Shown piece after piece: positions 5,320-56,085 of a DNA stretch of 64,000 bases. Source of the DNA: an uncultured Lachnospiraceae bacterium (GTDB lineage: Bacteria > Bacillota > Clostridia > Lachnospirales > Lachnospiraceae). Location of the stretch: positions 1 through 64,000 of the forward strand of contig CAMWTP010000002.1 in NCBI GenBank assembly GCA_947177165.1. Direction: 5' to 3'. The position numbers and the translations under genes are program-made. The notes beneath the pieces are model-generated. The model did no database searches, had not been told where the DNA came from, and worked only from the letters and a program-made list of their open reading frames with translations. How positions within the stretch are numbered: the stretch's first letter is position 1; each line of letters opens with the position of its first letter.

Positions 5320-6070
5320 AGCTGCTGTTCTTTCTCTCTCTAATGATATATTTGATAAACTTTGCGTTTGTTGTCACATATCTTTTCCACAGGCGCTTTG
5401 GATCCTGCACAAGTCTGTACAGCCACTCCAGACAGAGTGTCTGCATAATCCGCGGCGCTCTCCTGATATGTCCCGCCAGATAGTCAAATCCGGCTCCGAC
5501 ACCGATCGACACCGCATTCAGCTTTCCCTGATGTTCGTACATCCACTCCTCCTGCTTCGGCGCCCCGAGTCCTACCCAGATAAAGTCAGCCCCGGCATGA
5601 TTTATCAGCTCTATGACCTCTCTGTCTTCCTCCTCCGTGAGTGCCCGAAACGGCGGCGCGTACATTCCGGCTATAACCATATCCGGATAATCCCTCCGCA
5701 GCGCTGTCCTCATATCATCCAGTGTATCCTGCGTCGAACCGTAGAAAAAATGTCGGTACCCCTTTTGCCCCGATATCCGAAAAAGTTCTGCCATCAGATC
5801 CGGTCCCGTGACTCTCTCCGCATTCTGAAACCCTGCAGACCTGCTGTACTTAGAGAGCGGTCCCCCGTCGGGCAGCGCCATCGCCGCACCGTTCTGTATC
5901 ATGCGGTAATGCCTGTTTTCGTATGACATAACCGTCGTGTGCACATTGGATACACAGATATAACGGCCTCGAAGCGCGTCAAGGTGCGCATCGATATAGG
6001 AAAGTGTATCCTGCATATTGGTAACATTTATCTTTGTCTTTAATATCTCACAATACTGTAACTCACTCAT
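5309..6070 (-). CDS. WecG/TagA/CpsF-family glycosyltransferase (GT26)
   Basis: The product is 253 residues from the ATG at 6070, which lies just after the stop of the upstream sugar transferase. A longer frame from 6106 would overlap that gene. Conserved GT26 features are the N-terminal NVHTTVM region, ALPDGGPLSKYSR with the catalytic-type Asp, FYGSTQDT, DFIWVGLGAPKQEEW and VGAGFDYLAG. Family members such as TagA and WecG add an N-acetylmannosamine-type residue to a polyprenyl-linked sugar as the second step of glycan assembly. The position directly after the initiating transferase fits this step. The C-terminal basic amphipathic stretch suggests membrane attachment. Confidence 0.9.
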   Translation of the reverse strand: MSELQYCEILKTKINVTNMQDTLSYIDAHLDALRGRYICVSNVHTTVMSYENRHYRMIQNGAAMALPDGGPLSKYSRSAGFQNAERVTGPDLMAELFRISGQKGYRHFFYGSTQDTLDDMRTALRRDYPDMVIAGMYAPPFRALTEEEDREVIELINHAGADFIWVGLGAPKQEEWMYEHQGKLNAVSIGVGAGFDYLAGHIRRAPRIMQTLCLEWLYRLVQDPKRLWKRYVTTNAKFIKYIIRERKNSSYEK

Positions 6071-6074
6071 ATCA

Positions 6075-10285: not shown

Positions 10286-11227
10286 TTAGTTTCCTCCCAT
10301 CTTCTCAATGCTTTCAAAACTGTATTTCTTGCGCCGGAATACAAGGTCAACCAGTATCTGCAGATACTTTATAATGATAGTAAGTATTCCAAACAATCCA
10401 AAAAAGGCAAAGGACATGAAAAAGATTGTCGTTGTCCAACCCGCAACCGGGGTGCTGAACAGATACACCACAGCCGAATAGACCGCCACAGCTATTGCGA
10501 CCAACATCATGAGAACAGTCATCGTGACAGAGAACTGATAACCGAGCTCCGTAAACAGAATCATACTGTTGACCGCCAGTTCCGTCCGGTATTTGCGCTC
10601 GGTCCTGTCGTCCTTTGCCGCCTGTGCACCAGTGACCTGATACCTGATATTGGCGGTTTTCAGCCCGCAGTTTGCATACACCGCCTTGCGGTATGGCACC
10701 GACTTGTTCATGCTGCTAATGCGGTTGATCACCCTGCGGCTGAGCACCCGGAAGCGCTCTGTTTCCAACTGATAGGAATAGTCTGTGAACCGGTTGAACA
10801 CTTTATAAAACAGACTGGACGTAAAGCGCTGTTTCTTGTCCGGGGAAGCACTCACAATATCGTACCCTTTCAGCGACTTCCAGTATGCCTCCATAATCCG
10901 CACGGGCGCAAAGTCCGGCACACAGGCGTCAAATTCAAGCACAAAATCCCCGATAGCCAGATCCATTCCCGCATTCATGGCAACCTCCACGCCGTGAAAA
11001 TAGCTCATGTTCAAGACAGTAATCGTAGTATTCTTCATCCCTGTGCCTATCTTCCGCACCACATCCACACTGTTGTCCTGAGAGAAGTCGTTGACGCAGA
11101 TAATCTCGGAATGCTCAAAATGCTCCTCCAGCACATTCGCCACCATCTGCAGAAAGTCTCCGACCTGTGCCTCGTCGTTGTGTACATAGAGCACCGCAGA
11201 CATAAAATTCTTTTCCTTATCGCTCAT
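10286..11227 (-). CDS. GT2 glycosyltransferase with two C-terminal membrane segments
   Basis: The 313-residue protein has the GT2 start SAVLYVHNDEAQ, NDFSQDNS and EFDACVPDF in the DXD position. Two long hydrophobic segments at about 225-290 anchor it in the membrane. This layout is that of polyprenyl-phosphate glycosyltransferases such as GtrB, which make the lipid-linked donors used by GT-C enzymes. The loss of a canonical DXD (DAC) is slightly odd. The ribosome site GAGGAAATAAG supports the ATG at 11227. Its stop abuts the start of the SDR gene. Confidence 0.85.
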   Translation of the reverse strand: MSDKEKNFMSAVLYVHNDEAQVGDFLQMVANVLEEHFEHSEIICVNDFSQDNSVDVVRKIGTGMKNTTITVLNMSYFHGVEVAMNAGMDLAIGDFVLEFDACVPDFAPVRIMEAYWKSLKGYDIVSASPDKKQRFTSSLFYKVFNRFTDYSYQLETERFRVLSRRVINRISSMNKSVPYRKAVYANCGLKTANIRYQVTGAQAAKDDRTERKYRTELAVNSMILFTELGYQFSVTMTVLMMLVAIAVAVYSAVVYLFSTPVAGWTTTIFFMSFAFFGLFGILTIIIKYLQILVDLVFRRKKYSFESIEKMGGN

Positions 11228-11297: not shown

Positions 11298-12443
11298 TTA
11301 CAGGACTAAAATCTCATCCAGATCATACACGGTATTGATCTTTCCCGACAAAACTCCCACAAACGTAGGATTGGTCGAATAAGTGCGGACAACTGTCGGC
11401 CTTGAGTCATCAATCTCCGAACTCATCAGGATTGGCTTCATCGAGAACAGCGAATCCCTGTACGTAAACCCATACTCGTCCCGCAGATATTTGCGGGCAA
11501 GGTTTGCCATATACGGAAAAGCTGTCCTGGGCTTCGCCTTACAGTCGTTGCAATTGCCAAGATGCCTGCCGTCGCAGTATCCGCCGCTCTCCGCCTGACA
11601 CCCAAACTGCGGAACCGCATCATAGCTCGTCGCGTGCGGCGTAAACGTGACGGACGTGAGCGAGTGCAGTCCCGTCTTCCCAAACGGCATAATCGAAAAA
11701 AACGGGCCGTCCATCACGGTAAATCCATAATCCCTTAACTGATCGCTGACATCGCAGAGTATGATCTCACACAGTTCATATTTGATGCCGAATTTGTCAT
11801 ATCCCATCAGGTCAAGAATCTGGTTGGTGGACGCATATGTGGCGTTGAGCACGAATCCCGTCTGATATTTTGTCAGGATACCATTCTCCCTGACATACAC
11901 TTCATACACGTCCTGCGCTTTTTCCATTCGCTCGACACTGGCGCAAAAATGAATCTCCGCCAGACGCTCCATCTCTCCGAGTTTTTCCATGAAAAAGTCC
12001 CTCAGAATCATGGCGTCATAAGTGTACTCCCTCGTCAGAAACGCGCCGTCGCACATTCCCTGCTTAAAAAATTTTTCGGGGTGCAGCTCCTCGCACGGTA
12101 TCCGGGCCGCCTCGCAGAACTTCTGAAACTGCGCTCCGTCAGACCAGGAGTACTCGCTGGAGGTAGCGTACACTTTCTGAAATTCGCGGTTGATACAAAA
12201 ACCATAATCCTCATTAAAGCGCGCAAAATATCCCGCCGACTTCATCGCTGTCGAGAGGGAACGCGGATAGTGATACCCCTGATGCACTCTCGCCTGGTTG
12301 ATGTAAGTTGCCCGCTTAAACGGTGCATCCTCGCACTCGAGCACCAGCACATGCTGTCCGCACTTTGCACAGAAATATGCGGAGTACAGGCCGTAAAGTC
12401 CTGCTCCAATAATGATTTTGTCAAAATTCTTGTCCTGTTTCAT
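11298..12443 (-). CDS. FAD-dependent oxidoreductase (DAO-like fold)
   Basis: This 381-residue flavoprotein, starting at the ATG 12443 behind GAGAGGCAG, has the N-terminal dinucleotide site IIIGAGLYGLYSAYF and the acidic end of strand 2 (VLVLECED). The conserved ARVHQGYHYPRS follows, seen in flavoprotein relatives of UDP-galactopyranose mutase and amino-acid oxidases within glycan loci. A Cys group CNDCKAKPRTAFPY lies near residue 300. The gene overlaps the upstream GT2 gene by 23 bases. It probably acts on a nucleotide sugar or lipid-linked sugar in the cytoplasm. The reaction is not known. Confidence 0.8.
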   Translation of the reverse strand: MKQDKNFDKIIIGAGLYGLYSAYFCAKCGQHVLVLECEDAPFKRATYINQARVHQGYHYPRSLSTAMKSAGYFARFNEDYGFCINREFQKVYATSSEYSWSDGAQFQKFCEAARIPCEELHPEKFFKQGMCDGAFLTREYTYDAMILRDFFMEKLGEMERLAEIHFCASVERMEKAQDVYEVYVRENGILTKYQTGFVLNATYASTNQILDLMGYDKFGIKYELCEIILCDVSDQLRDYGFTVMDGPFFSIMPFGKTGLHSLTSVTFTPHATSYDAVPQFGCQAESGGYCDGRHLGNCNDCKAKPRTAFPYMANLARKYLRDEYGFTYRDSLFSMKPILMSSEIDDSRPTVVRTYSTNPTFVGVLSGKINTVYDLDEILVL

Positions 12444-13431
12444 GGTCACTCTGCCTCTCATCCCGCGAAAGAATCTCCCAGAAATAATATCGGGGCCTGC
12501 GCTTCGTCTCCATATAGTTCCTTCCTACATACTCCCCTATGATGCCAAGCGACAGCAGGATTGCTCCCCCGAGCACCCAGATCGACATCAATATCGATGA
12601 CCAGCCGCTGACCGTATATCCAAAGTAATGCTCATATACAATGTGTATGATCATGCCCAAACCTACAAAGAGCGCCAATACTCCCATCGCAAATACCATT
12701 CTGATCGGCTTGATGCTAAATGAAGTGATGCCGTCCGCCGCAAGCGTGAACATCTTGGTCAGCGAATATTTTGACGTTCCCTGCATGCGTGGAAAGACAT
12801 CAAAATACACCACCGAGGACTTTAACCCGATATCTGGTATAATGCCCCTCAGGAACAGATTGACCTCATCGTATTCAGCCAGGGCTTCCAACGCCTTGGC
12901 GCTCATAAGCCTGTAGTCCGCCGAGTTCTCATAGATATCGCAGCCCATGAGCCGCATCGTCTTATAGAACAATGTCGCCGAAAACTTCTTGAAAAAACCG
13001 TCCGTATTTCTGGAGTTGCGCACGCCAAATACAATCTCACTTCCGTTTACATACTCGCCGATAAAGTTTTCCATCGCGTTGATGTCCTGCTGCAGGTCGG
13101 CATCTATGGTGATCGTATAGTCACAATGCTTCCTGGAGTATAACATCCCCGCCAGAATCGCATTCTGATGTCCCCTGTTGTGTGCAAACCGAAGACCTTT
13201 GATCTCCTCGTTCCTCTCATACAGCGCTTTTATGAGCTCCCAGGTCCTGTCCCTGGAGCCGTCGTCCACAAACACAATCCTGCTCTCACCAGATATTATC
13301 TCCCGCTCCTTCAGCTCATGGAGTTTGTCCAAAAGCTTTCCGGCCGATGTTTCCAGAGCTTCCTCTTCATTGTAGCAGGGAACCACAATGTAGAGGATCC
13401 CTTTTTGTCTACTGTTCTCCACCTCTGTCAT
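12421..13431 (-). CDS. Membrane GT2 glycosyltransferase, GtrB/ArnC-like
   Basis: Counting from the ATG at 13431 the product is 336 residues; an in-frame ATG at 13488 would add 19 poorly conserved residues. It contains IVVPCYNEEEAL, FVDDGSRDRTWE, the donor motif TIDADLQQD and GVRNSR. Two membrane helices follow at about residues 240-320. This is the typical architecture of undecaprenyl-phosphate glucose/aminoarabinose-type transferases (GtrB, ArnC). The lipid-linked sugar would be flipped and used by a GT-C enzyme, and GtrII- and DUF6020-type genes lie immediately upstream. Confidence 0.9.
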   Translation of the reverse strand: MTEVENSRQKGILYIVVPCYNEEEALETSAGKLLDKLHELKEREIISGESRIVFVDDGSRDRTWELIKALYERNEEIKGLRFAHNRGHQNAILAGMLYSRKHCDYTITIDADLQQDINAMENFIGEYVNGSEIVFGVRNSRNTDGFFKKFSATLFYKTMRLMGCDIYENSADYRLMSAKALEALAEYDEVNLFLRGIIPDIGLKSSVVYFDVFPRMQGTSKYSLTKMFTLAADGITSFSIKPIRMVFAMGVLALFVGLGMIIHIVYEHYFGYTVSGWSSILMSIWVLGGAILLSLGIIGEYVGRNYMETKRRPRYYFWEILSRDERQSDHETGQEF

Positions 13432-13507
13432 ATCCTTCCATTTATTCCTACTCCCGTTATCCGCCTTTTTATATTGATTGTAAACCATATCCGATTTCTT
13501 GGCAACG

Positions 13508-15334
13508 TCATTTTACCTGCTCCTTTTGAAATATCACTGCGCAGAGCACAGGAACCAGACACATTGCCGGCATCGCATAGCGAATACATGTGTTGACCGG
13601 AGAGATCAGGCAGACCAGAATATTCACAATCGCCGGAAGTGCAGTCACGGCCTCCCGGTATCTCTTTCTGGTCAGCAGATATCCCACCGCAAACACAACG
13701 CACCATGTGTAAAAACCGCAGCGGTACAGCAGACCGATTCCCGGCAGATACTCAAACTTACCGATCTGTTCCAGCAGAAAACGAAATGGTGCGAGCGCCT
13801 CTATCTGGCGGGCGGGATGCATCCCCTCGGTAAACATATTCCTGTCCATCTCGTAAAATCCGTTCCCCTCCTTATACGGCTTCGCTTCCGGGTAATAGTA
13901 GCCGTACGAGCATTCAAGAAACGTGTTGATGTAGGACAGCGGATGCCGCCGGAACTGCGCAAACCACACTTTAAAATATTCATCTCTGATCTGGGCAAAC
14001 TCGGCATTTGTCCCATCCGCCGACGTTGCCTCACAGATTTTCAGACAGTTTTTCACCCAGTCTGCAAGCTGTGGATTGTAGACCTGCACCAACTCCTCAT
14101 AGTCAAACATCTGATTCAGAAATGCACGCTCTTCCTCCGTCACATCCTCTGGGTAATCCTGACCGTACTTTGCAGTCTGCTGAAAAAGTATACAGTAAGT
14201 ATCTTCTTTCTCCTGCAGCGACACCACGCCAAGCGACGGATACAGCACATTATTTAACAGATAAATAATCGCAAACATTGCAGTTGCCGAACCAAGGTAC
14301 ACTCCCTTTTTCTTCCCCGGTGTCATAAAGAACAGGAACGGAACAGCAAACAGCAGAATAAAAATCCCGTTGTTTCTCGTCTGCGACATCAGTACTCCGT
14401 ACAAAAGCATCCGAAGAAGATGCCGCTTTTTCGCAAAAAATTCCTCCTGCCTGACAATGCACCATGCCATCTCCACTGCGTAGAGAAGAGAAAGCGGCCA
14501 GTATATGGAATCCTTTATCACTGTAACGTCAAAAATGCACCACACGGTAAACAGCCCGTAGTAAGCGAGCCCTGCCCACCGAATCCAGTAAGGAACCTTC
14601 AACTCTTTCAGCAACAGACATACACTCGCCACCGCAAAGGCCGACAGGCAGGTCTGTCCCAATGGAATGAGAAACATCCCAAGATTAGGAATCCCCCACT
14701 CCTGCGCATAAAATGCAACCGCTCCATAGACAAATCCGAGCAGCGGCGGATGATGATTGGAAAAAGTCTCAATTCCGTAAAAAGCACAAATCTGTGCCCC
14801 GCCGTCCCAAGACATAGAACATGGATAAAACGCAATCAGATATGGCAGCCTGCAAAGAAATACCACAAGCATCACGCCCGGTATCACATGATCCTCAAAC
14901 AGCCATCTGGTCACTCCGGACACGGTATCAGTCCCTTCATGCCGTTCCACCATCCTGGTAATCTGATTGCCGAGAAGAGACACTGCCGTATAAAATAGTG
15001 GCATATACCCAATCAGCAGCAGAACCGCCAGCAGCGGATACTTCAGCGCGGGATCTGCATTCTGCGCCTTTCCGATAATCATAGCCAGCGTAAATAAAAG
15101 AGCTGTCACTGCATACCCAGTCCGATCCCTCCGCTTTTGAGATAACTGCAAGTCCTCTTTGACCCAGATGCGCCAGTATACCCAGACTATGACCACCAGT
15201 GCGATCAGCTGCGGAATCCCGTCCCCGTTGAGCGCCATCGACAGATTTCCTGTGGATTCCACGTCTGCAAACAGCGCGATCGTCGAACAAACTGCCAAAA
15301 ATAATACTGTGAGTTCCTTCATCTTCGTTTTCAT
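13508..15334 (-). CDS. DUF6020-like large membrane protein, probable GT-C transferase
   Basis: The 608-residue protein has 12 or more hydrophobic segments. A central outer loop contains SWDGGAQICAFYG and SNHHPPLLGF. The combination of an acidic residue after a membrane segment and an HHPP motif is characteristic of DUF6020-type proteins and resembles GT-C active-site loops. A large hydrophilic insertion lies at about 400-540. It lies in the heptose-containing run between GtrII-like and GtrB-like genes, which supports use of a polyprenyl-phosphate sugar donor. Enzyme activity is inferred from architecture. Confidence 0.75.
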   Translation of the reverse strand: MKTKMKELTVLFLAVCSTIALFADVESTGNLSMALNGDGIPQLIALVVIVWVYWRIWVKEDLQLSQKRRDRTGYAVTALLFTLAMIIGKAQNADPALKYPLLAVLLLIGYMPLFYTAVSLLGNQITRMVERHEGTDTVSGVTRWLFEDHVIPGVMLVVFLCRLPYLIAFYPCSMSWDGGAQICAFYGIETFSNHHPPLLGFVYGAVAFYAQEWGIPNLGMFLIPLGQTCLSAFAVASVCLLLKELKVPYWIRWAGLAYYGLFTVWCIFDVTVIKDSIYWPLSLLYAVEMAWCIVRQEEFFAKKRHLLRMLLYGVLMSQTRNNGIFILLFAVPFLFFMTPGKKKGVYLGSATAMFAIIYLLNNVLYPSLGVVSLQEKEDTYCILFQQTAKYGQDYPEDVTEEERAFLNQMFDYEELVQVYNPQLADWVKNCLKICEATSADGTNAEFAQIRDEYFKVWFAQFRRHPLSYINTFLECSYGYYYPEAKPYKEGNGFYEMDRNMFTEGMHPARQIEALAPFRFLLEQIGKFEYLPGIGLLYRCGFYTWCVVFAVGYLLTRKRYREAVTALPAIVNILVCLISPVNTCIRYAMPAMCLVPVLCAVIFQKEQVK

Positions 15335-15353: not shown

Positions 15354-16922
15354 TTATTCGCACATCTTGACAACCCAGATATCCTGAATCTTCTGCACAC
15401 AGCCTTCCTTCGGATACACGGCCATGTTCTTATACTCCTCAGTCTCCATAATGGCCTCCTTCTCGGAAAATCCGAGATCCGCCATGTCATAACCGACAAA
15501 CATCTTGATAAAATTATCCCTCACACTCGTCGTGATCAGACCATTCTCAAGCGCCACCCCGTCCAGCTCCCGGAGGTCCTCAGCGTCCAGAATGTCAACC
15601 TCAACAGTGCTCGGATTATCCCTGTAATAAAACTCCCCGAGAATCTCAATGCGATCGCCGTTCTCATACCCTTCGGCAGTCTCAACCATAGCGATCACTC
15701 TGTTGAAATACTGCTGTACCCGCTCTGTCGCAAAATTCGTCCTCAAATATGCGCGGTTTGCCAAAAGGTAATCGGTGTAACTGCTCACAAATATCACAGA
15801 CACCACCGCAAGGACTGCCGCATACCGCAATCCATTTCTCCATCTCACGGACACCGGCCTGATATGCCAGTCCTCCATGCAGTACTCAAGAAGCGCCAGC
15901 ACAGTCACATAAATCAGTGCGTACGCGTACAGCATCAGCATCGAATACGTTGCCTCCGGCGCCATGAAATACACAAACGCCGCTGCCAGCGGAACAAAAG
16001 CGCACAGCAGGAGCAGCATCAGAAACGTCAAAAGATCCCTGTACATTTTCCGCGCAAGCACAAGGTAGAGAAAAAGTGCTGCCGCAAGCACGCATGTAAT
16101 GACGTTTGCAGCCTGTGCCGTGCCGCTCACAAACGCGAACGGTTTCCACAGGAAATATTCGAGAAACCGCTTATAGCACCTCCCGACCAGTATCGGGATC
16201 TCGCTGACGGCAATCTGCCCCATATTTCCCACGCCGCCGTATGTCTCATTGTCCAGATTGGGATAGATCACATGCGACAGCTTCATGTAGATCAGCACCC
16301 CTGCCCCGAGCACCAATACGCACACAATCCCTTTTTTCAATATTTCTGGAAACTGTTTCCCGTGAAAAATATCCGCGATCATGCCAAGCAGCATCAGCGT
16401 TATTGCGAAACTGACATAACTCTGGTAGGTCCCGAGCGCACAGATCAGAAGTATCGTGCAGGGAAGCCAGCCATACCGGTATTTCCGCAGGAGATACACT
16501 GCAAGCGTGACCATGAGAATACCGATACCAGACGTGTGCGCCATGAACATAAATGTCATAGTGCTCACCACACTCGGAAACGTCTCCAGAACAGCCGCTG
16601 TCAAAACCGCCCCCGTGGTACTTTTTATCTGCAGGATTTCCAGAATCAGACAGGCCGATACTGCAATACACAGTATCAGCAAAAATCCATGCACCGCAGG
16701 AACACTGTATTTCCCTCCAAGGGGATGGATATACTTTAAGAACCATCTCCCGAGATAATCGCCGCTTCCAAAATTCCCCATGTTATTAGCATCATCCCAG
16801 TTGAGAAATTTATGCGTTAACATATAAAAATGTGTAAGCCATCCGATCACAATCCCCGATACCAGACAAATCCGTATATGCCTTGGAATCCTTTTTATTA
16901 ACTGTGCCAGCAAATCAAAACT
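15354..16922 (-). CDS. GtrII-like glucosyltransferase-domain membrane protein
   Basis: The start at ATG 16922 has AGGAGA 13 bases upstream and overlaps the preceding stop by 8 bases, giving 522 residues. It has about 11 membrane segments. The conserved GtrII features are NWDDANNMGNFGSGDYLGRW in the first outer loop and then HGFLLILCIAVSACLI. A soluble C-terminal domain of about 130 residues follows. GtrII-type enzymes take glucose from undecaprenyl-phosphate-glucose and add side branches to surface polysaccharide. Neighbouring GtrB-like and EamA-like genes would supply the donor and the flippase. Confidence 0.85.
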   Translation of the reverse strand, partial: SFDLLAQLIKRIPRHIRICLVSGIVIGWLTHFYMLTHKFLNWDDANNMGNFGSGDYLGRWFLKYIHPLGGKYSVPAVHGFLLILCIAVSACLILEILQIKSTTGAVLTAAVLETFPSVVSTMTFMFMAHTSGIGILMVTLAVYLLRKYRYGWLPCTILLICALGTYQSYVSFAITLMLLGMIADIFHGKQFPEILKKGIVCVLVLGAGVLIYMKLSHVIYPNLDNETYGGVGNMGQIAVSEIPILVGRCYKRFLEYFLWKPFAFVSGTAQAANVITCVLAAALFLYLVLARKMYRDLLTFLMLLLLCAFVPLAAAFVYFMAPEATYSMLMLYAYALIYVTVLALLEYCMEDWHIRPVSVRWRNGLRYAAVLAVVSVIFVSSYTDYLLANRAYLRTNFATERVQQYFNRVIAMVETAEGYENGDRIEILGEFYYRDNPSTVEVDILDAEDLRELDGVALENGLITTSVRDNFIKMFVGYDMADLGFSEKEAIMETEEYKNMAVYPKEGCVQKIQDIWVVKMCE

Positions 16923-18600
16923 CATCAAAATTATATCTCTCCTGTTCCAGCGCAAACGTCGTGCCGATCACATACCCGTCCGCCTCATAAAAGTTCAGTC
17001 CGCAATCCAGATAATCCGGCAGCTCTTCCGGCTTAAAGACAAAAACATACGAGTCATCTGGATGCTGCAGACTGTACTGTGTGTCCTCGATCACACTCAG
17101 TCCCCTTGCAAAATAGAAGATATTCATCGTGAGCATATTGTCGTAAGCCCACTTTGACATTTCCAGTATCTGCCTGTTTTCATAGCTGTTGGATACCCAC
17201 ACAAAATGCGCAAGTCCCTCCTTCCCGGCAAGCTCATCCCACGCTGCATCCTGAAGCGTGGACACGTAATCGCCTTTCGGCGCAAACCGCTCTCTCTGCT
17301 CTGTCAGCTTTCCGCTGATATCAAAGATCTGCAGGAAGCAGCACACCGCCAGCACCCCGGCCGATATCACAGCGGACATCTTCCTGTTGACAATCAGACC
17401 ATCCCACATTTTTGCATTGCAGACGATGACAACCATATAAATGAGATAACATACCGGCCACACAATCCTTCCGGAGGAACGAAAAATACTCCAGTAATGT
17501 GTCAATGTACTGCTGTCCGTCAGCACAATAAGCAGTTTGTCATTCCATGTCACAACCGGCGATGCCGCAAACATGATCAGCCCGACAGCGACAAGAACTC
17601 CCGTCACGATGCCCGCCCAATGTCTCCGGACACAACCGCCGCGACTCCTGACCAGCTCCAGAGCAATATAAACACCCGCAACTGCCATGAGCACAAAAAT
17701 CCCGATTCCAAGATAGGCAAACCCCTCGTACTGGGACTCATGGTACATGGGAAGTGCATCCAGAAAACGAGAATATCCCTTTTCGTTAAAAAAACCGTTC
17801 AGGTTGAAGCTGCACTCACCAAGCCCTTCACTCTCCGCCGAAGCGCGTGTCGAAAAACCTCCCAGCAGATAAGTGACTGCCAGAAGCGCTCCCGCAAAGG
17901 ACACCCCGGGAAGCAGGCGCTTCCAGCAGACTGCCTTCTCTCTCAGGAAACTGCATAAAATATATCCGCACAGAAAGGCGCCGCACATTGGCAGATAATA
18001 CAGATGAACTCCTGCGACCAGCACTCCCACAATTCCCCAGCACAGCACCGCTTTCCTTGTATTCTGGTAATCCTTCCTGTGTCTGATAAACAGATAAACT
18101 GCCAGAAGAATCAACCAGTGTCCTCCCAGGGCAGTATGACGGAACATCCTCTCAATCACAATAGGCGATACGATGAAATAAATACTGCCGATCAGCACCT
18201 GCAGTCTTCCAATCGAAAATTCCCGCAGTATTCTGGCTGCCAAAAAACCCTGCAGAGCAAAGCTCACAATCCCCCACCAGCCAAAATACTGAAATGTTTC
18301 CGGCAAAACAGGTGACAAAACTTTAAAAAACACTGCCAACAGCGGTATCGAGTCTGTAAATATCACCGAAGTATATGACGGATATGCCAGATTGTCCGTA
18401 AGTCCGATCGGAAATGTCCAGTGTCCGCGCCGAAAAAAACACCAGCCAAGATAGTGCTGCGTCAGATCCCCCTGCCCTAAAAGCCAGTCATCATAGACAG
18501 GGTTTAAAACATTGATGCCATAGATCATTACAAATGCCACAGCGCCAGCCAGAGCCGCCATTCCATACAATATCCTGTCGTTCGCTTGTTGATCGCGCAT
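16915..18600 (-). CDS. DUF6311-like large membrane protein, probable glycan-modifying transferase
   Basis: Starting at ATG 18600, behind GAGGTGGAG and three bases after the gmhB stop, the product is 561 residues with about 11 hydrophobic segments. The first outer loop has the family hallmark YDDWLLGQGDLTQHYLGW and FPIGLTDN, followed by MFRHTALGGHW. The C-terminal 120 residues are soluble. The same overall plan (acidic first loop, helices, outer domain) is seen in the two neighbouring large proteins, so three parallel transferases may decorate one polymer. The longer frame from 18729 would run inside gmhB and is rejected. Confidence 0.75.
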   Translation of the reverse strand: MRDQQANDRILYGMAALAGAVAFVMIYGINVLNPVYDDWLLGQGDLTQHYLGWCFFRRGHWTFPIGLTDNLAYPSYTSVIFTDSIPLLAVFFKVLSPVLPETFQYFGWWGIVSFALQGFLAARILREFSIGRLQVLIGSIYFIVSPIVIERMFRHTALGGHWLILLAVYLFIRHRKDYQNTRKAVLCWGIVGVLVAGVHLYYLPMCGAFLCGYILCSFLREKAVCWKRLLPGVSFAGALLAVTYLLGGFSTRASAESEGLGECSFNLNGFFNEKGYSRFLDALPMYHESQYEGFAYLGIGIFVLMAVAGVYIALELVRSRGGCVRRHWAGIVTGVLVAVGLIMFAASPVVTWNDKLLIVLTDSSTLTHYWSIFRSSGRIVWPVCYLIYMVVIVCNAKMWDGLIVNRKMSAVISAGVLAVCCFLQIFDISGKLTEQRERFAPKGDYVSTLQDAAWDELAGKEGLAHFVWVSNSYENRQILEMSKWAYDNMLTMNIFYFARGLSVIEDTQYSLQHPDDSYVFVFKPEELPDYLDCGLNFYEADGYVIGTTFALEQERYNFDEF

Positions 18601-18602
18601 CG

Positions 18603-19142
18603 TTACTCCACCTCTTCCATACATATCTGCCGCGCAAAATCCCACAGATTCCGGTACAAATGATCCCTGTATTTTTCCTGCAGTGCACTGGATACCGCAT
18701 GTCCGCTCAAAAGCAGCCCATACTTGCATCCCGCGTTGACTGCCGTCATGACATCCGCCTCTTTATCGCCGACCATATAGGAGCGCGCAAGGTCAATGTC
18801 CCACTCCGCCGCGGCGCGGTCAATCAGACCGGTCTGCGGCTTTCGGCATGTGCATCTGTCCTGCTCCACATGCGGACAGTAATAAAACGCGTCAATCGCA
18901 GCGTTGTGCTCCTGCAGAATACGATTCATATACGCATGCAGCTGCTCCACATCCTGCGCACCGAAGTACCCTCTGCCGATGCCGGACTGATTGGATATCA
19001 CGATCAGTTTGTATCCGTGCTCCTTCAGCAGGGCAAGGGCCCCGACCGTCCCGTCTATAAACACCAGTTTGTCCGGTTCGTGCAGATAATCCACATCCAC
19101 ATTGATTGTTCCATCCCTGTCCAGAAAAATTGCTCTCTCCAT
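18603..19142 (-). CDS. gmhB: D-glycero-beta-D-manno-heptose-1,7-bisphosphate 7-phosphatase
   Basis: This 179-residue HAD phosphatase has the nucleophile motif FLDRDGT (Asp 8, Asp 10), the second motif VISNQSGIGRGYF and the third MVGDKEADV. It also has the structural zinc site specific to GmhB: CPH followed by CTCRKP. It removes the 7-phosphate of heptose bisphosphate, the third step in making ADP-heptose. The four partner enzymes are encoded just upstream in the same transcript. A GAGGAG precedes the ATG. The related histidinol-phosphate phosphatase role is unlikely given the neighbours. Confidence 0.93.
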   Translation of the reverse strand: MERAIFLDRDGTINVDVDYLHEPDKLVFIDGTVGALALLKEHGYKLIVISNQSGIGRGYFGAQDVEQLHAYMNRILQEHNAAIDAFYYCPHVEQDRCTCRKPQTGLIDRAAAEWDIDLARSYMVGDKEADVMTAVNAGCKYGLLLSGHAVSSALQEKYRDHLYRNLWDFARQICMEEVE

Positions 19143-19152
19143 ATCTCCTCAC

Positions 19153-20361
19153 TCAAATCTCCCTCAACACCTGCTCCACACTCACCTCGTCCATGCACTG
19201 ATATCTTCCAGTCCTGAGCAGATGCTCCTTACATTCCGCTGTGATCGTCCCGTATGCGCACCCCGCACAGTCCTTCTGTGCGCTGCACACGATAACAGGC
19301 TCATGATCCTCGCAGCTGCGCTCACAGCGGTACGGCAGAAATCTCCCGTACGCAAACTCGCCAAAAATGCAGATTCCCCTTGTGTTCACCGCGGCCGCAA
19401 AATGAATCCCGCTCGTATCATTTCCGACAAATAAATCTGCATTCCGGATAATCTCAGCAAGTTCCGGAAGCGTCGTCTTTCCGAACAGATCGTGCACCCT
19501 GTCCCTGTACCGCTCCATGTCACGCCCTCGAGCAGCCTCGAGAACATCCACAAACTGTCTGTACAGATACGCCTCATTCGCTCCTCCGCACAGATAGACA
19601 TCCATTCCTTTTTCCGAGACAATATACGCTCCGACCTTTGCATACCGTTCAATCGGCCACATTTTCTTACCTGAGCTCGCCCCGGGGAAAATGACCACAT
19701 ACGGTCTTGGCGGTATCACCCCCTGCTGTACCTGCATCTGCGGAAGCGACGGATATCCCGCCTGAAAGTCCTGCCCCAGTCCTCTGATAAACACTGCATT
19801 CCGCTCGAGCTCCATCAGGTCTTCCCCTCCTGACGGAATCAGCCGGTCGTAGACATCGTCCAGTTTTTTGCGGATACTTCGCAAAGCCATGTACCGGCTC
19901 AGATTCACCCTCGACTCATCCGCCACAAAGGCAATTTTCTCCTCCGCCGGAATGTTCATGGCAAGCAGGTCCATATCAATGGTGCGCGAATAGGCGGTCT
20001 GCAGCAGTGTATGATAATGTTTATCCCGAAAACTGTCCCATATTTCCTTCTTATATCTGTTATCCGATTCAAATCTCCTGCTCTGTACCGGAATCACCGC
20101 ATCAAAAAAACCTGTCTTTCCGGCAATCTCAGCACATGCCGTGTTGCACACCAACGTGATCTCCTGTTCCGGATAAAGCTTTCTGTACTGTGATGCACTG
20201 TCAAGCCATATCAGAAAATCTCCGATCGCATCTATTTTGATCACTGCTATCCCGTTGACTCCCTGGCCGGCTGGCCTCCGGTTTTTTAGAAACACAATCC
20301 GAAACTGTGACATCCATATATTCATCCACCGACTGGCTTTCTCCCATGTGTCGCGCCACGC
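19153..20361 (-). CDS. GT9 heptosyltransferase-like glycosyltransferase
   Basis: Starting at ATG 20361 (AGGAGCAGG upstream, four bases after the gmhA stop), the product has 402 residues. Two Rossmann-type halves carry IAVIKIDAIGDFLIW near residue 40, PGASSGKKMWP near 230, and the donor-site signature VGNDTSGIHFAAA near 320. A C-terminal Cys group (CSAQKDCAGC, CKEH, CM) is also common in GT9. GT9 enzymes such as WaaC/WaaF transfer heptose from ADP-heptose. Its place inside the ADP-heptose gene group makes it the probable user of that donor, in a cell with no sign of LPS genes here. Confidence 0.9.
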   Translation of the reverse strand, partial: AWRDTWEKASRWMNIWMSQFRIVFLKNRRPAGQGVNGIAVIKIDAIGDFLIWLDSASQYRKLYPEQEITLVCNTACAEIAGKTGFFDAVIPVQSRRFESDNRYKKEIWDSFRDKHYHTLLQTAYSRTIDMDLLAMNIPAEEKIAFVADESRVNLSRYMALRSIRKKLDDVYDRLIPSGGEDLMELERNAVFIRGLGQDFQAGYPSLPQMQVQQGVIPPRPYVVIFPGASSGKKMWPIERYAKVGAYIVSEKGMDVYLCGGANEAYLYRQFVDVLEAARGRDMERYRDRVHDLFGKTTLPELAEIIRNADLFVGNDTSGIHFAAAVNTRGICIFGEFAYGRFLPYRCERSCEDHEPVIVCSAQKDCAGCAYGTITAECKEHLLRTGRYQCMDEVSVEQVLREI

Positions 20362-20365
20362 CATA

Positions 20366-20968
20366 TCAATCCTGCTCCTCCGCCCAAAATCCCTGCTCGC
20401 ACAGACCATTCTCAATCAATCCGCAGATCGTATGAATCAATAAAATATGCATCTCCTGAATCCTCGGCGTATTGTCCGAAGGCACATGAAACAGATAATC
20501 CGCACATGACCGCATCCGCCCTCCGGTCCTGCCTGTCAGTCCCACTGTGCTGATGTGCCGCTTTCCTGCCTCCTGCATCGCCTTTACGACATTTGCGGAA
20601 TTCCCGCTGGTCGATATGCCAAACAGCACGTCGCCTTCCTTTCCCAGCGCCGCAACCTGCCTGGAAAAGACGCTCTCGTAGTCATAATCATTTGATATCG
20701 CAGTCATCACAGCTGCATTCGCATTCAATACAATGGCGGAAACTCCCCTGCGTTCCATCTGATAGCGTCCCACAAGCTCGCCTGCCATGTGCAGCGCATC
20801 GGACGCACTGCCGCCATTCCCGCAGATCAGGAGCTTATTTCCCCGCTGATACGCATCAACACACAGCCGTGCCACCTTCTCAACGGTTCCAAGCAGCGCC
20901 TCATCGCGCAAAAGCTTTTCTTTTGCGGCGATGCTCTCCTCAATATTTGCTCTGATATATTCCAGCAT
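20366..20968 (-). CDS. gmhA: Sedoheptulose-7-phosphate isomerase
   Basis: The 200-residue SIS-domain protein has the phosphosugar site CGNGGSASDALHMAGELVGR, the Ser loop GISTSGNSANVV and TPRIQEMHILLIH with conserved Gln/Glu/His residues. It converts sedoheptulose 7-phosphate to D-glycero-D-manno-heptose 7-phosphate, the entry step of the pathway. Length matches the family (about 190-200). A related SIS protein, DiaA, shares the fold, but the surrounding hldD, gmhB and rfaE genes settle the assignment. Confidence 0.95.
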   Translation of the reverse strand: MLEYIRANIEESIAAKEKLLRDEALLGTVEKVARLCVDAYQRGNKLLICGNGGSASDALHMAGELVGRYQMERRGVSAIVLNANAAVMTAISNDYDYESVFSRQVAALGKEGDVLFGISTSGNSANVVKAMQEAGKRHISTVGLTGRTGGRMRSCADYLFHVPSDNTPRIQEMHILLIHTICGLIENGLCEQGFWAEEQD

Positions 20969-20985
20969 CCTCTTTCTCCCCCAGC

Positions 20986-21954
20986 CTAATAAATCTCATA
21001 TCCCTTTGCCAGATAATTGCAGACATAGTCGCGCGCACCATCCTCGAGAGACGTAAACGGTGCCTGATAGCCCGCACTGCGCAGCTTGTCCATCGACGCC
21101 TGCGTATAATACTGATATTTCGGGCGGAGAGTCTCAGGCATTTCAATATACTTGATATTGGGTTCCATTCCCATCGCGTGGAAGGTCGCCGCTGCCAGGT
21201 CATAAAAGCTCCTCGCCGTTCCCGTTCCGAGATTGAACAGCCCGCTGATCTCAGGATGATCAATCATGAACAAAATCACCCTGCAGATATCCTTGACATA
21301 CACAAAATCCCGAAGCTGTCCGCCATCTGCGTACCCTTCCTTGTACGACTTGAACAATCCCATCTCACCCGTCTGTGTAATCTTGTTAAAAGCGTGGAAG
21401 ATCACGCTAGCCATGCTGCCCTTGAAATACTCGTTCGGTCCATAGACATTGAAGAACTTGAATCCGACATACTGTCCCGGTCTCAGCTCCTGTCTTTCCG
21501 CCCACAAGTCAAAAAGCTGTTTGGAGTATCCATATCCGTTCAGCGGCCGCAGCCTGCCGATATCCTCCCTGTCATCAAAACCCTGCGATCCGTCCCCGTA
21601 CGTGGCAGCACTGCTGGCATAGATAAAGCTGATTCGGTTCTCCACACAGAATTTCCAGAGCATCTGTGTGAACTCCAGATTATTTTTGTACAGGAAATCA
21701 AAATTGCGCTCCGTCGTCGAGGAACACGCCCCCATGTGTATCACATGGGAGACTTTGCCTGCATACGACGCAAGCTCTCCCGGAAATTCATCGCGGTTAA
21801 TATATTTTGTGTACTTCTTGTTTCTAAGATTCATCCACTTATCGGTCTCTGCGATATGATCTACAACAATGATATCCTCCACTCCGCGGTCATTGAGTTC
21901 CCGCACGATACAGCTTCCGATAAAACCTGCCCCGCCAGTTACAATAATGCTCAT
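20986..21954 (-). CDS. hldD: ADP-L-glycero-D-manno-heptose 6-epimerase
   Basis: The 322-residue extended SDR has the NAD(P) site TGGAGFIGS, the characteristic DKWMNLRNKKYTKYINRDEF-like region of HldD, ASSAATYGDG with the catalytic Thr/Ser zone, and the YGYSK catalytic pair near residue 140. KFFNVYGPNEYFKGSMASV follows. The enzyme inverts C6 of ADP-D-glycero-D-manno-heptose to the L-glycero form. Its presence shows the cell makes ADP-linked L,D-heptose, not the GDP-linked D,D-heptose of S-layer glycans. A GGAGGAG precedes the ATG. Confidence 0.95.
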   Translation of the reverse strand: MSIIVTGGAGFIGSCIVRELNDRGVEDIIVVDHIAETDKWMNLRNKKYTKYINRDEFPGELASYAGKVSHVIHMGACSSTTERNFDFLYKNNLEFTQMLWKFCVENRISFIYASSAATYGDGSQGFDDREDIGRLRPLNGYGYSKQLFDLWAERQELRPGQYVGFKFFNVYGPNEYFKGSMASVIFHAFNKITQTGEMGLFKSYKEGYADGGQLRDFVYVKDICRVILFMIDHPEISGLFNLGTGTARSFYDLAAATFHAMGMEPNIKYIEMPETLRPKYQYYTQASMDKLRSAGYQAPFTSLEDGARDYVCNYLAKGYEIY

Positions 21955-21997
21955 AATGACTCCTCCATCGTTTTTCCCTGGAACTGCATACAGTTCC

Positions 21998-22489
21998 TTA
22001 CTGCCCGTAGTTCCTTATTTTCTCAACAATATTTGTAGTCGAACATCCGTCGACGACATTGACATACGCTACCCTGCCGCCATATGCTGCCACGCTGTCC
22101 ATCTCCGGAATCTGCTTTCCCGCATAGTCACCGCCCTTGATGACAATATCCGGTTGTATTCTGTCAATAATGCCGCAAGGTGTCCTGTCCGAAAAGATAC
22201 ATACATAATCGACACTCGCCAGTCCGGCAATCACAACTGCGCGCTCCTCCTCGGGGACAATCGGTCTGGAACTGCCCTTTAATGTTCTGACAGAGCTGTC
22301 CGAGTTGAGCAGCACGACCAGAAGATCTCCATTTGTCTTCGCCTCCTCCAGATACGTCACATGACCTGCATGAAGGATGTCAAAGCATCCGCTCGTAGAC
22401 ACGACTGTCTTTCCCTGCTGCTTTGCACGCTTTATTTCTCTTTCCAGTTCCGCCAATGATATGATCTTGTTTTTCGTCCTACTTTTCAT
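21998..22489 (-). CDS. rfaE2: Heptose-1-phosphate adenylyltransferase (HldE C-domain as a separate protein)
   Basis: The 163-residue cytidylyltransferase-fold protein carries STSGCFDILHAGHVTYLEEA with the HxGH nucleotide site, VLLNSDSSVRTLKG, RAVVIAGLASVDYV and VIKGGDY. It joins heptose 1-phosphate to AMP from ATP. In enterobacteria this is the C-terminal domain of HldE; here it is its own gene. The ATG at 22489 has GGAGAGG seven bases upstream and lies inside the kinase gene, overlapping it by 11 bases. The two products are therefore translationally coupled and probably act together. Confidence 0.94.
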   Translation of the reverse strand: MKSRTKNKIISLAELEREIKRAKQQGKTVVSTSGCFDILHAGHVTYLEEAKTNGDLLVVLLNSDSSVRTLKGSSRPIVPEEERAVVIAGLASVDYVCIFSDRTPCGIIDRIQPDIVIKGGDYAGKQIPEMDSVAAYGGRVAYVNVVDGCSTTNIVEKIRNYGQ

Positions 22490-23465
22490 ACAACCTCTCC
22501 AAAAGTTCTTCCTTTGTAACAACGGCAGTACCCCGTTTCCCTATGACAACACCCGCCGCTATATTTGCAAGAACCACCGCATCATCGAGCGCAAGTCCGC
22601 TGGCAAGCCCCAGCGTGATCGTGCTGATCACCGTATCCCCTGCACCTGTCACATCAAACACCTGCACAGCCTTTGACGCGTAATCTCTCCTCCCGCTTCC
22701 GCGCTCAAAGATCGAGATTCCATCAGCCCCCCTTGTCACGATAATGCTCTTAGCCTTAGAACGCTCCAGATAGGCCTTGCCAGCCCTGTCCAGGGACTCC
22801 GTATCATTGATCTCGATATTGACCGCATTCTCCAGCTCCAAGTTATTCGGCTTCACGAAATCCGCATTCTCAAAAGCTTCAATATGGCGGCTCTTGGAAT
22901 CAATCGTCACGATGACATGGTTTTCATTGCACATGCGGATTATTTTCCGCACAAAATCCGGATTTTCGAACACACCTTTGCAGTAGTCCGAAAGCACTAC
23001 TGCATCCCACTCCGAGATATGTCTCATCATGTAATCAAGCATTCTTGTCTGGGTAATCTCCTGTATCGGACTGCTGTCCTCCCGGTCTACACGCAGAAGC
23101 TGCTGTACTTTGGTCGCAAAGCGCGTCTTTACCGTTGTCATGCGGTTTTCCTCCGCCACAATGCCCTCCGTATCGATCGATGCAGCTCTCAGAAATTCCC
23201 GCAGCCATATCCCGCCGTCATCCAGACCCGCAACACCTGCCATGGAGAGCTTTCCTCCCATGGCATGCATATTCAGCGCCACATTGGATGCTCCGCCCGC
23301 ACTCCGCTCTGTTCCTCTGTAATTCAGAACTGGTACAGGCGCCTCTGGTGATATTCTTCCTACCTTTCCCAGAATGTATTCGTCTACCATCAGGTCCCCA
23401 AGCACCAGAATGCGCTTCTTTTCAAACTCTGTCCGAACTGCTCCCGCCAATCTGTCTTCTACCAT
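22479..23465 (-). CDS. rfaE1: D-glycero-beta-D-manno-heptose-7-phosphate kinase (HldE N-domain as a separate protein)
   Basis: This 328-residue PfkB-family kinase contains LGDLMVDEYILGKVGRISPE, APVPVLNYRGTE, the GGASNVALN substrate loop and the C-terminal DVTGAGDT with the catalytic Asp and anion hole. It phosphorylates C1 of heptose 7-phosphate. The PfkB type, rather than a GHMP-type HddA, indicates the beta anomer and the ADP branch. It overlaps rfaE2 at its 3' end and lies behind the sulfatase-like gene with a gap of 18 bases. Confidence 0.94.
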   Translation of the reverse strand: MVEDRLAGAVRTEFEKKRILVLGDLMVDEYILGKVGRISPEAPVPVLNYRGTERSAGGASNVALNMHAMGGKLSMAGVAGLDDGGIWLREFLRAASIDTEGIVAEENRMTTVKTRFATKVQQLLRVDREDSSPIQEITQTRMLDYMMRHISEWDAVVLSDYCKGVFENPDFVRKIIRMCNENHVIVTIDSKSRHIEAFENADFVKPNNLELENAVNIEINDTESLDRAGKAYLERSKAKSIIVTRGADGISIFERGSGRRDYASKAVQVFDVTGAGDTVISTITLGLASGLALDDAVVLANIAAGVVIGKRGTAVVTKEELLERLYEK

Positions 23466-23483: not shown

Positions 23484-25574
23484 CTATTCCTGCAGCATTT
23501 CGCCTTTCCAGTTATCGATATCCGACACATCACCGACAATCGTGTACTTGACAAACTCAGGATAAAGCTTCAAAAATGTCCGTTCCTTCTCCGGGTCATT
23601 CACTGCCTCATCGAGTGTCACTCCGTACTGTTGATGGTCCATCCCCATCGTCCTGACCATGGAGGCCAGCATCTCGGCCTGTGAGACAGGTACATCGCTG
23701 ATCTGCAGCTGTGAGCCCGTCTGATGCGGCTCCTTGATCATGATAACGGGCGACGACACTTTCTGCGGTTTTCCCGTTTCCTCGATAAAATCCGTCTGCT
23801 GTCCGTGATCAGCTGTGATAATAATTGTGGCATCATCGTATTTCCCCAAAGCCCTGAGCTGCTCCATATATGCGTACACAATCTTCAGACTTCCGCGAAT
23901 CTGCGCATAAAGATCTGATTCCCTTCCTGTCTTATCATATTTCATATCCTCCGAAAAGGTATATGGTTCATGTGCCCCGTGCATATGATAGAACCGGAAT
24001 GCCTCTGCATAGTCATCCGATACCGTCAGTCCCCCTGTCCGCAGTCTCTCCCAAAACGGAAAGTCATTCTCTGTATCCCACACCTGCGGTGCCTTTACGA
24101 TTTCCGCAATATCATCAGAATAATAAGAATATCTGTTTTTCAATATAAAGGGGGTCGTCTGGTACATGGCGCACTTCCACATCGTGTACATTGTCGCACC
24201 GATATCATAGTTTTTCCCGACTGCAGCGCTGTAATTAGAAATCATATCATACAACTGACCTGACACATAGTCCGCGTCTGTATAGATTCCAAGGTCAAAT
24301 CCCTGCTGCCGGATATCCTGCAAAAGAGTGCTGTCCTGATACGCGTACACTCCATAGTCTGTCCCGTACGCTTCCTTCCACGCTGTCGCCGTGAGCAAAT
24401 ACGGTATCCCCGGTCCTGTATTTGCAAACTGTGATGTGGCATTGCGGTAGAAAATAAAATCTGCCAGCGGCTCACAGAAACCTGTGTCCTCCTCGTACAC
24501 CGTTTCCATCCAGCTGCTGTCCAGACGGTCCAGAACAAACACCAGAACATTCTGTCCCTCCGCCACTTCAAGCGAATTTTGAATCGTCAGCTCCCCCGAC
24601 TGCCTGTAACCGCCAAGGTCTGTTGTTATGATCAGATACCCAAGCGTCACTGTCTGAATCAATATGATGTAAATACATGCCGCCCTGCCGATTTTGACAA
24701 CCGCCTTCTTTTTGGTGCAGAGCACCATCAGGGCCGCAATCACAATAAACCACAGGACAATGTTCGTAATCTGCTGTGTGGCGGTCCACACCTGCTCGTC
24801 CCCGTCAAGAATCTCCATTTTGCCATTCAGGAACATATTCTGTATATAACCCAGAAGCGTTATTTCCATTATAAAGAGGTTCATATAATGCATCATTGCC
24901 TTTGGAAGCAAAAACACTTCCCCGAGAATCAGCAAAATAACTGTCAAAAGGGCACCGCAGAGCGTGATCGCCAGCAAAGGGCCATAACTTCCCGTAAATT
25001 CTCCCGGATTGCTGATATACAGTTCATTTGGCAGAAAGACACAGTGCATCACCACCCATGCGCCGACATACGGAGCCGCAGCGCGGACGGCTTTCCAAAG
25101 TTCCGTTTTCTGATAATACACAGACGCTTTTCTGTCAGTAATTTTAGCCGCAAGCGCCAGACATGCGCAGACTGCGAACACAACACAATAGAGCCGGTTG
25201 CTAATTCTGCCACATATCAGAAAGCTCAGCATCGTTCCCGGAAACATCACTGCGCAAAATGTGTCAATGATTTGTTTGTCCGAAAACCACTTCACCTTCA
25301 ACAGCAGTACAAGTGTCACAAGACAGAGCACGCCGATCGGCACACTGTAATGAATATATGTCTGCATTTCCGCATCCCAGAAACTCTCGAACAGTGTATT
25401 CTCGGAACTGCCCAGCAGACTCTTTACAATTGAGAGCACAAAATAGATTCCATTAAAAAATAAAAAAGCCGCTCTGATAAACCGCATCCGGTCATGGCTG
25501 AATACCATCCACACAAACGCTGATGCCAGTGCAAATATCAGGATCAACGCAAAAACCACAATCCCCTGCTGCAT
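23484..25574 (-). CDS. Membrane alkaline-phosphatase-fold enzyme (sulfatase/LTA-synthase-like)
   Basis: The start at ATG 25574, with GGAGGGAAGGGAG upstream, gives 696 residues; the longer frame from 25706 covers the promoter. About nine membrane segments fill residues 1-340. The outer C-terminal domain then shows VFVLDRLDSSWM, with Asp in the metal position, FANTGPGIPYLLTA in the nucleophile zone, MHGAHEPY, and IITADHGQQTDF with the Asp-His metal pair. Such proteins transfer phosphoglycerol or phosphoethanolamine, or act as sulfatases. Here it may add a phospho-group to the heptose-bearing glycan. It is the first gene behind the long operon promoter. Confidence 0.85.
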   Translation of the reverse strand: MQQGIVVFALILIFALASAFVWMVFSHDRMRFIRAAFLFFNGIYFVLSIVKSLLGSSENTLFESFWDAEMQTYIHYSVPIGVLCLVTLVLLLKVKWFSDKQIIDTFCAVMFPGTMLSFLICGRISNRLYCVVFAVCACLALAAKITDRKASVYYQKTELWKAVRAAAPYVGAWVVMHCVFLPNELYISNPGEFTGSYGPLLAITLCGALLTVILLILGEVFLLPKAMMHYMNLFIMEITLLGYIQNMFLNGKMEILDGDEQVWTATQQITNIVLWFIVIAALMVLCTKKKAVVKIGRAACIYIILIQTVTLGYLIITTDLGGYRQSGELTIQNSLEVAEGQNVLVFVLDRLDSSWMETVYEEDTGFCEPLADFIFYRNATSQFANTGPGIPYLLTATAWKEAYGTDYGVYAYQDSTLLQDIRQQGFDLGIYTDADYVSGQLYDMISNYSAAVGKNYDIGATMYTMWKCAMYQTTPFILKNRYSYYSDDIAEIVKAPQVWDTENDFPFWERLRTGGLTVSDDYAEAFRFYHMHGAHEPYTFSEDMKYDKTGRESDLYAQIRGSLKIVYAYMEQLRALGKYDDATIIITADHGQQTDFIEETGKPQKVSSPVIMIKEPHQTGSQLQISDVPVSQAEMLASMVRTMGMDHQQYGVTLDEAVNDPEKERTFLKLYPEFVKYTIVGDVSDIDNWKGEMLQE

Positions 25575-25677
25575 ACCTGTCTCCCTTCCCTCCTGCCACC
25601 AGTCACCATTTATTCCGATGCTTACAAGCGGCGCACAACTACCTCTGTCATAAGAATGCCCATTGCGGCACACGAAT

Positions 25678-25706
25678 ATTATAAAGCAATTATACGCGAC
25701 TTGCAA
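25678..25706 (-). promoter_or_regulatory. SigA-type promoter of the heptose/glycan operon
   Basis: On the minus strand TTGCAA (25701-25706) and perfect TATAAT (25678-25683) are separated by 17 bases. The next gene starts about 100 bases downstream at 25574. No other strong promoter was seen before 7.6 kb, so this one probably drives up to sixteen genes. Confidence 0.78.
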
Positions 25707-54759: not shown

Positions 54760-54762
54760 CGC

Positions 54763-55754: not shown

Positions 55755-55859
55755 TATAAAAACCTCCTTCTCTCTATCGAGCAGGGAATTCTTTTCCTAC
55801 CCGCGCGCCGCCGATGCGCCAAGCCAATGGCATGCTGCTGCACCGGTGTGTATAGCACA

Positions 55860-55890
55860 GGGAGAGTATAGATAACTCCCATACTCTCCC
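55860..55890. repeat. Perfect ten-base inverted repeat in the GH30/AraC divergent region
   Basis: GGGAGAGTAT (55860-55869) and ATACTCTCCC (55881-55890) face each other across 11 bases. The 330-base gap 55755-56085 holds no gene. The repeat could be an operator for the AraC regulator or an mRNA-leader hairpin of the GH30-GH5 operon; no T-run follows it. Confidence 0.5.
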
Positions 55891-56085
55891 CTCCTGCACA
55901 AGTTTTGCATCAGCCCAATTCTATCCCTTGACATTCCTTAACAGTTCTTTAGAGGGCCCCTGCCTGATGAATCCATCTTATCATTGCACCGTGGCTCCTA
56001 CAAGCGCGTATCTTGTCTTGCGATAGGTCAATATTGCTTTTTTTACATTTTTAACATATACTTATAGAAAAAGGAGGTGCAGACC

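Follow-up and report, generated by a model that had tools for sequence, protein, structure and literature searches.

ADP-heptose is usually regarded as a hallmark of Gram-negative bacteria, and human cells sense it. A different heptose, GDP-D,D-heptose, occurs in the S-layer glycans of the Gram-positive Aneurinibacillus, by a route whose kinase and nucleotidyltransferase belong to other families and which uses a different nucleotide. Here we describe a six-gene heptose cassette in the genome assembly of an uncultured Lachnospiraceae bacterium (GCA_947177165.1); the window analysed, 64,000 nucleotides in length, begins at the start of contig CAMWTP010000002.1. The cassette shares with Aneurinibacillus the prospect of heptose in a Gram-positive envelope but differs in holding HldE1, HldE2, HldD and a beta-type GmhB. 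An earlier interpretation made from the letters of the window alone, the sequence-only reading, presumed that ADP-heptose belongs to lipopolysaccharide (LPS) cores, which proved too narrow a premise: in the excerpted text of PMC10221265, Streptomyces produce ADP-heptose for septacidin and hygromycin B, and functional heptose enzymes are reported across kingdoms in PMC11461863 and PMC11573728, both of them commentaries on Tang et al. 2024. ADP-heptose outside Gram-negatives is already published in these works. The Streptomyces pathways, as that excerpt has them, resemble ours as ADP-heptose pathways of a Gram-positive; they lead to a secondary metabolite, whereas our cassette has glycan genes and a glycosyltransferase of family 9 (GT9) as neighbours. 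Compared with the LPS-core pathway, the window encodes all five activities by family together with a GT9 of heptosyltransferase fold, but its HldE is split, the cassette lies in a surface-glycan operon, the GT9 falls outside the equivalog cut-offs, and searches of the host genome gave no LpxC, Kdo transferase or Omp85.

The six genes lie side by side on the minus strand (23465 to 18603) and are transcribed in the order hldE kinase, hldE adenylyltransferase, hldD, gmhA, GT9 and gmhB. All six reading frames are open, the gaps between them measure -11 to 43 bp, and most of the starts have a purine-rich, GGAG-like stretch ahead of them. We used curated NCBIfam equivalog models with their own cut-offs for the pathway enzymes and Pfam gathering scores for domain families; of the five pathway enzymes, all clear the cut-off of their model except the kinase. 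This kinase, encoded by hldE1 (heptose-7-phosphate kinase, HldE domain I; 22479..23465; PF00294), scores 337.4 bits against TIGR02198, slightly below the cut-off of 345, although this is by far its best-scoring model, and its best solved relative is the heptose 7-phosphate kinase 4e84 (1.3e-49). The product of hldE2 (heptose-1-phosphate adenylyltransferase, HldE domain II; 21998..22489) exceeds the TIGR02199 cut-off (191.9 versus 181.5 bits), and its best solved relative is 5x9q (1.6e-31), an entry named 'putative cytidylyltransferase'. Its start is more likely the ATG at 22489 than the listed TTG at 22522, and from that ATG it overlaps hldE1 by 11 bp. HldD (ADP-glyceromanno-heptose 6-epimerase; 20986..21954) reaches 411.3 bits against a cut-off of 274.6 in TIGR02197, the model for the epimerase yielding the L,D form, with the HldD structures 4ej0 (7.1e-75) and 1eq2 (9.4e-72) as best solved relatives. 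GmhA (sedoheptulose-7-phosphate isomerase; 20366..20968) scores 219.3 bits in TIGR00441 (cut-off 209.45) and is closest to the GmhA structure 2xbl (7.7e-57). GmhB (heptose bisphosphate phosphatase; 18603..19142) is of the beta type: it passes NF006506 (190.9 versus 178 bits) and TIGR00213 (168.7 versus 149.6) and lies far below the alpha-type model NF050049 (123.8 versus 250), and its solved relatives are 3l8e (9.6e-35) and 2gmw. The cassette proteins align with solved enzymes over most of their length. In summary, the enzyme families support a complete ADP-L,D-heptose gene set, the kinase falling just short of its model, as the sequence-only reading had proposed; its arrangement of five contiguous steps, a split and overlapping HldE and a GT9 between gmhA and gmhB was also borne out, with the starts of HldE2 and the GT9 corrected.

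The GT9 gene (19153..20364), which encodes a predicted heptosyltransferase, is the sole GT9 gene of GCA_947177165.1. Its start is more likely the ATG at 20364 than the position given by the open reading frame listed to 20415. The protein scores 92.8 bits against PF01075 (gathering score 22), and an alignment of 23 GT9 proteins has 11 invariant columns, among them G48, D316, H321 and four Cys. The predicted structure (403 residues, pLDDT 89) is closest in fold to 3tov, a GT9 of Veillonella parvula (VIA-align Z 31.1), and then to the heptosyltransferases WaaF and WaaC; 319, 306 and 302 residues, respectively, superpose at 2.8 Å each. The earlier assignment of a heptosyltransferase-type GT9 is therefore supported at the level of fold in this predicted model, short of the equivalog cut-offs. 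The likeness to 3tov is structural, as the two share only 17% identity and the title of 3tov states no function. TibC and the other autotransporter heptosyltransferases belong to the same fold class, and the TibC class has been solved with ADP-heptose.

We searched for three LPS and outer-membrane markers, LpxC (PF03331), Kdo transferase (PF04413) and Omp85 (PF01103), using two Selenomonadaceae as controls. All three were detected in both controls, and none had a match in GCA_947177165.1 (95.5% complete). LpxC was absent from all 11 HldD-positive genomes of the family, the window's own included (13 genomes searched with the controls), and none among the own genome and six cassette-sharing relatives carries it. 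Among 34 further genomes searched (35 loci given), with two records titled Bacteroides and two titled spirochaete among them, LpxC occurred in one, a Phascolarctobacterium and thus itself a Negativicute. It was not found in a second Phascolarctobacterium record, a 1.4-Mb assembly, which shows that the gene can go undetected where an assembly is incomplete. The searches for Kdo transferase and Omp85 covered 21 handles each: both controls had the two markers and none of the 19 clostridial handles did. These 19 correspond to 17 genomes, because the handles G340 and G793 denote one genome and G178 and G802 another. Single marker absences mean little, and the pattern of absence is uniform across the clostridial carriers. 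The data support a Lachnospiraceae-type host without LPS by the three markers tested, in line with the earlier view of a Clostridia-type cell, and the genome did not prove to be Gram-negative with an LPS core locus. In this the host differs from Veillonella, since Negativicutes bear LPS according to the excerpted text of PMC5007114; a term search of that text gave no occurrence of heptose, gmhA, rfaE, hldE or waaF.

A scan of contigs for near relatives by HldD, which is not a frequency measure, returned 53 loci. Six of them, all labelled Lachnospiraceae (L002-L006 and L039), carry an HldD 83-92% identical to that of the window and share the order hldE1-hldE2-hldD-gmhA followed by GT9 and gmhB, with gmhB ahead of GT9 in L006. 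The gene-order search that the sequence-only reading had called for in related Lachnospiraceae thus recovered the same block six times. HldE is split in all six as well, so the split is not an assembly error of GCA_947177165.1, and DUF6311 and/or GtrII follows the cassette in every one. Most of the remaining clostridial loci encode HldE as a single fusion of 471-535 aa and arrange the genes differently. The loci of Diplocloster modestus (L020), Clostridium sp. LS (L022) and Butyrivibrio sp. LB2008 (L024) encode the whole set of enzymes. Glycosyltransferases are the commonest proteins in the flanks: among 32 flanking proteins of four close loci, GT2 accounts for 5 (25 of 32 families listed), and among 46 of five other loci, GT9 accounts for 4 and GT2 for 3 (25 of 77 families listed). 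Among the families listed, the two sets between them also hold GtrII, CotH, VTC, MBOAT, Wzx-type exporters and sugar-nucleotide enzymes. CotH kinase, VTC, MBOAT, DUF4956, PEP mutase and TupA families lie near the cassette in L002, L004, L006 and L039. In five loci (L007, L009, L010, L011 and L012) a divergent SIS protein with 31-39% identity stands in place of a clear GmhA, and the GmhA match of G178 and G788 reaches 90-100 bits only; these proteins are perhaps another isomerase.

To place the cassette within the family, we sampled 397 Lachnospiraceae genomes. The family assignment agrees with two of its genomes, which share their coordinates with the records of L020 (Diplocloster modestus) and L030 (Oribacterium parvum), both labelled Lachnospiraceae in the taxonomy of the HldD tree. 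HldD exceeded its cut-off in 11 of them, the next best score being 154 bits, and HldE domain II was present in 15 at E<=1e-30 (14 over the cut-off). GT9 at E<=1e-12 occurred in 11 genomes spanning 10 genera, weaker GT9-like proteins being excluded from the count. HldE was present in every HldD genome and every GT9 genome (11/11 each), eight genomes had all three, and in all 11 GT9 genomes the nearest GT9 lay on the same contig as HldE, within about 8 kb. Fisher's test for the co-occurrence of HldE and GT9 gave 1.6e-18, a value that is only indicative since it treats genomes as independent. In Lachnospiraceae GT9 goes with heptose synthesis, an observation that is new here. Our own iterative GT9 profile seemingly drifted to other GT-B proteins, so its 44 of 64 loci were left unused in favour of Pfam searches. 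In a class-wide draw HldD was found in 1 of 391 genomes, namely GCA_947177165.1 alone, and the cassette is therefore rare at that scale; HldD was not found in G196, the sole genome of the same genus drawn.

An HldD tree, built by a quick method with SH-aLRT support and containing several long branches, was midpoint-rooted for drawing only. The window HldD groups with the six Lachnospiraceae loci (SH-aLRT 97), next to three Oscillospiraceae/Clostridia loci (90), and a wider group (94) adds Selenomonadaceae, spirochaete-titled and Butyrivibrio loci. Rows labelled Clostridia, Selenomonadaceae, Phascolarctobacterium and Spirochaetes intermingle in the tree, which together with the presence of HldD in so few family genomes suggests that the cassette has been exchanged horizontally, in a direction the tree does not give. 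Two loci titled 'uncultured Bacteroides' match genomes of the window's own family in HldD, almost exactly in one case (L013/L057) and exactly in the other (L031/L058), so these titles appear to be mistaken.

The nucleotide used by HldE2 was addressed through a motif, (F/L)XXGRSTT, which according to the excerpted commentary PMC11573728 marks NTP-promiscuous heptose nucleotidyltransferases (STTR5), with exceptions noted. HldE2 of the window reads VVDGCSTT and does not match it; with C in place of the R of the promiscuity motif, the enzyme would be expected to yield chiefly ADP-heptose. The clade of the window carries C at this fifth position; of 42 loci with a readable motif only three (L014, L015 and L027) carry R, and the full motif is absent in all three. 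We rejected the GDP-D,D-heptose route because three of the enzymes (nucleotidyltransferase, epimerase and phosphatase) fall into ADP/beta families and HldE domain I is the closest model for the kinase.

The cassette sits in a near-gapless minus-strand run of about 25 kb, from 25706 to about 480, whose largest gap is 162 bp and which is preceded by a 346-bp gap; this spacing suggests a single transcript. All features named below lie on the minus strand, and hydrophobic segments were tallied by a crude count. The first gene of the apparent operon (23484..25706) encodes a 740-aa membrane protein with 8 hydrophobic segments, weakly sulfatase-like (PF00884, 23.8 bits, just under the cut-off of 25), and a homologue precedes the cassette in L002, L003 and L006. 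Downstream of the cassette follow a DUF6311 multi-pass membrane protein, a candidate glycosyltransferase (16915..18600, open reading frame listed to 18729; PF19830, 9 hydrophobic segments), with homologues after the cassette in L003, L004, L005, L006 and L039 but not L002; a GtrII-type membrane glucosyltransferase (15354..16955; PF14264, 221.6 bits), with homologues in L002, L004, L005, L006 and L039, the contig of L003 ending before that point; and a DUF6020 multi-pass membrane protein (13508..15334; PF19484, 10 hydrophobic segments). Two GT2 enzymes each have two C-terminal hydrophobic segments: one at 12421..13488 (PF00535, 81.2 bits; segments at 256 and 293), which may resemble polyprenyl-phosphate sugar synthases, and one at 10286..11227 (PF00535, 40.6 bits; segments at 228 and 261). 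Further along lie an initiating sugar-phosphate transferase (6075..7499; WcaJ-like, Bac_transf, PF02397, 231.3 bits) and a WecG/TagA/CpsF-family glycosyltransferase (5309..6106; PF03808, 201.6 bits). Altogether the run includes three GT2 enzymes, and it also encodes a DUF6077 membrane protein, two small proteins of EamA type, a YdjC and a GDSL hydrolase. The glycan-operon setting described in the sequence-only reading is thus present, with WcaJ-like, WecG/TagA-family, GT2, GtrII, DUF6311 and DUF6020 genes surrounding the cassette. Glycan genes (480-2029) reach the contig start, so the operon may continue beyond it, with further genes, perhaps a flippase or ligase, out of view. Elsewhere in the window, at 54600-55900, lies a broken GH30 glycosidase gene, whose N-terminal part (202 aa) and C-terminal part are in different frames.

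We consider it probable that the cell makes ADP-L,D-heptose and that the GT9 adds it to a lipid-linked surface glycan, giving an L,D-heptose surface polymer in a cell without LPS. The glycan would be begun by the WcaJ-like and TagA-like enzymes of the same operon, the GT9 would transfer heptose onto it, and the membrane glycosyltransferases of GtrII, DUF6311 and DUF6020 types would complete it outside the membrane. We infer the acceptor, the polymer and the ALPK1 activity; a surface polymer is the likely destination of the heptose. Several results weigh against this reading. The GT9 is below the cut-offs of all heptosyltransferase I, II and III equivalogs (79.0/185.3, 54.5/134.6 and 55.3/170.2 bits), so family does not settle its donor and acceptor, and 4 of the 15 HldE genomes (G172, G236, G240 and G331) have no GT9 at E<=1e-12. 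Both points would suit an enzyme that moves some other sugar, or whose substrate has nothing to do with heptose, in a cell that does make ADP-heptose. We find this quite improbable, given that HldE is nearby in all 11 GT9 genomes of the family and that its closest structural matches are heptosyltransferases together with 3tov, a GT9 whose function is not stated. The set is not always complete either: 4 of the 15 HldE genomes (G172, G336, G358 and G383) have no HldD over the cut-off; GmhA, found in 22 of 23 handles at E<=1e-20, passes its cut-off in only 8, being weak (<=112 bits) in G172, G178, G331, G788 and G802 and missing in G383; and the part of the operon within the window, where the contig begins, yielded neither a flippase nor a polymerase. 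Three of the genomes without HldD over the cut-off (G336, G358 and G383) have GT9 beside HldE, G172 has none, and all four may make or use the D,D-heptose form.

A different destination for the heptose, either a protein (for instance a glycoprotein of the surface or the flagellum) or a secreted small molecule, seems rather unlikely to us, though TibC acting on autotransporters and septacidin in Streptomyces offer models for it. A silent or partly degenerate cassette that yields no heptose could be read from the kinase score just under its cut-off, but with open frames throughout, a block conserved in six relatives and proteins that align with solved enzymes along most of their length, we rate it as very improbable. 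The assembly is fragmented (247 contigs, 6.96% estimated contamination, no 16S gene found) and the Selenomonadaceae HldD is 73-74% identical to that of the window, as might be expected if the contig had come in as contamination from an LPS-bearing organism, such as a Negativicute, or if the host were a cryptic diderm. Such an origin is barely credible, however, with the same block and a closer HldD in six Lachnospiraceae-labelled records and LpxC missing from these and from every HldD-positive family genome; Gram-negative contamination was rejected as the principal explanation because the six relatives share the gene block.

Literature searches covering open-licence PMC papers gave no report of heptose in Lachnospiraceae polymers, or of GT9 and HldE occurring together in this family without lipid A genes, and no paper on heptose in Eubacterium saburreum; a term search of the main text of a 2025 review on gut surface polysaccharides (PMC12413058) did not return the word 'heptose'. 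In the excerpted text of a 2025 Nature paper (PMC12137129), ADP-heptose is attributed to a Gram-negative gut consortium and vancomycin, used against Gram-positives, left the effect unchanged, so Gram-positive producers, if any, were not the chief source in that setting. Beyond this locus, we hold only tentatively, at somewhat less than even confidence, that a lineage of GT9 heptosyltransferases, coupled to ADP-heptose synthesis, has been exchanged among monoderm Clostridia and LPS-bearing Negativicutes and, in scattered Lachnospiraceae and other Clostridia, incorporates heptose into polymers of the wall or surface; some Gram-positive commensals would then be unrecognised producers of an ALPK1 agonist, bearing an 'LPS-core' sugar without LPS. 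If scattered Gram-positive lineages do make ADP-heptose, its attribution to Gram-negatives still needs checking. Lachnospiraceae, in which GT9 and HldE co-occur where lipid A genes are absent, would offer a clean setting in which to study the role of heptose without LPS.

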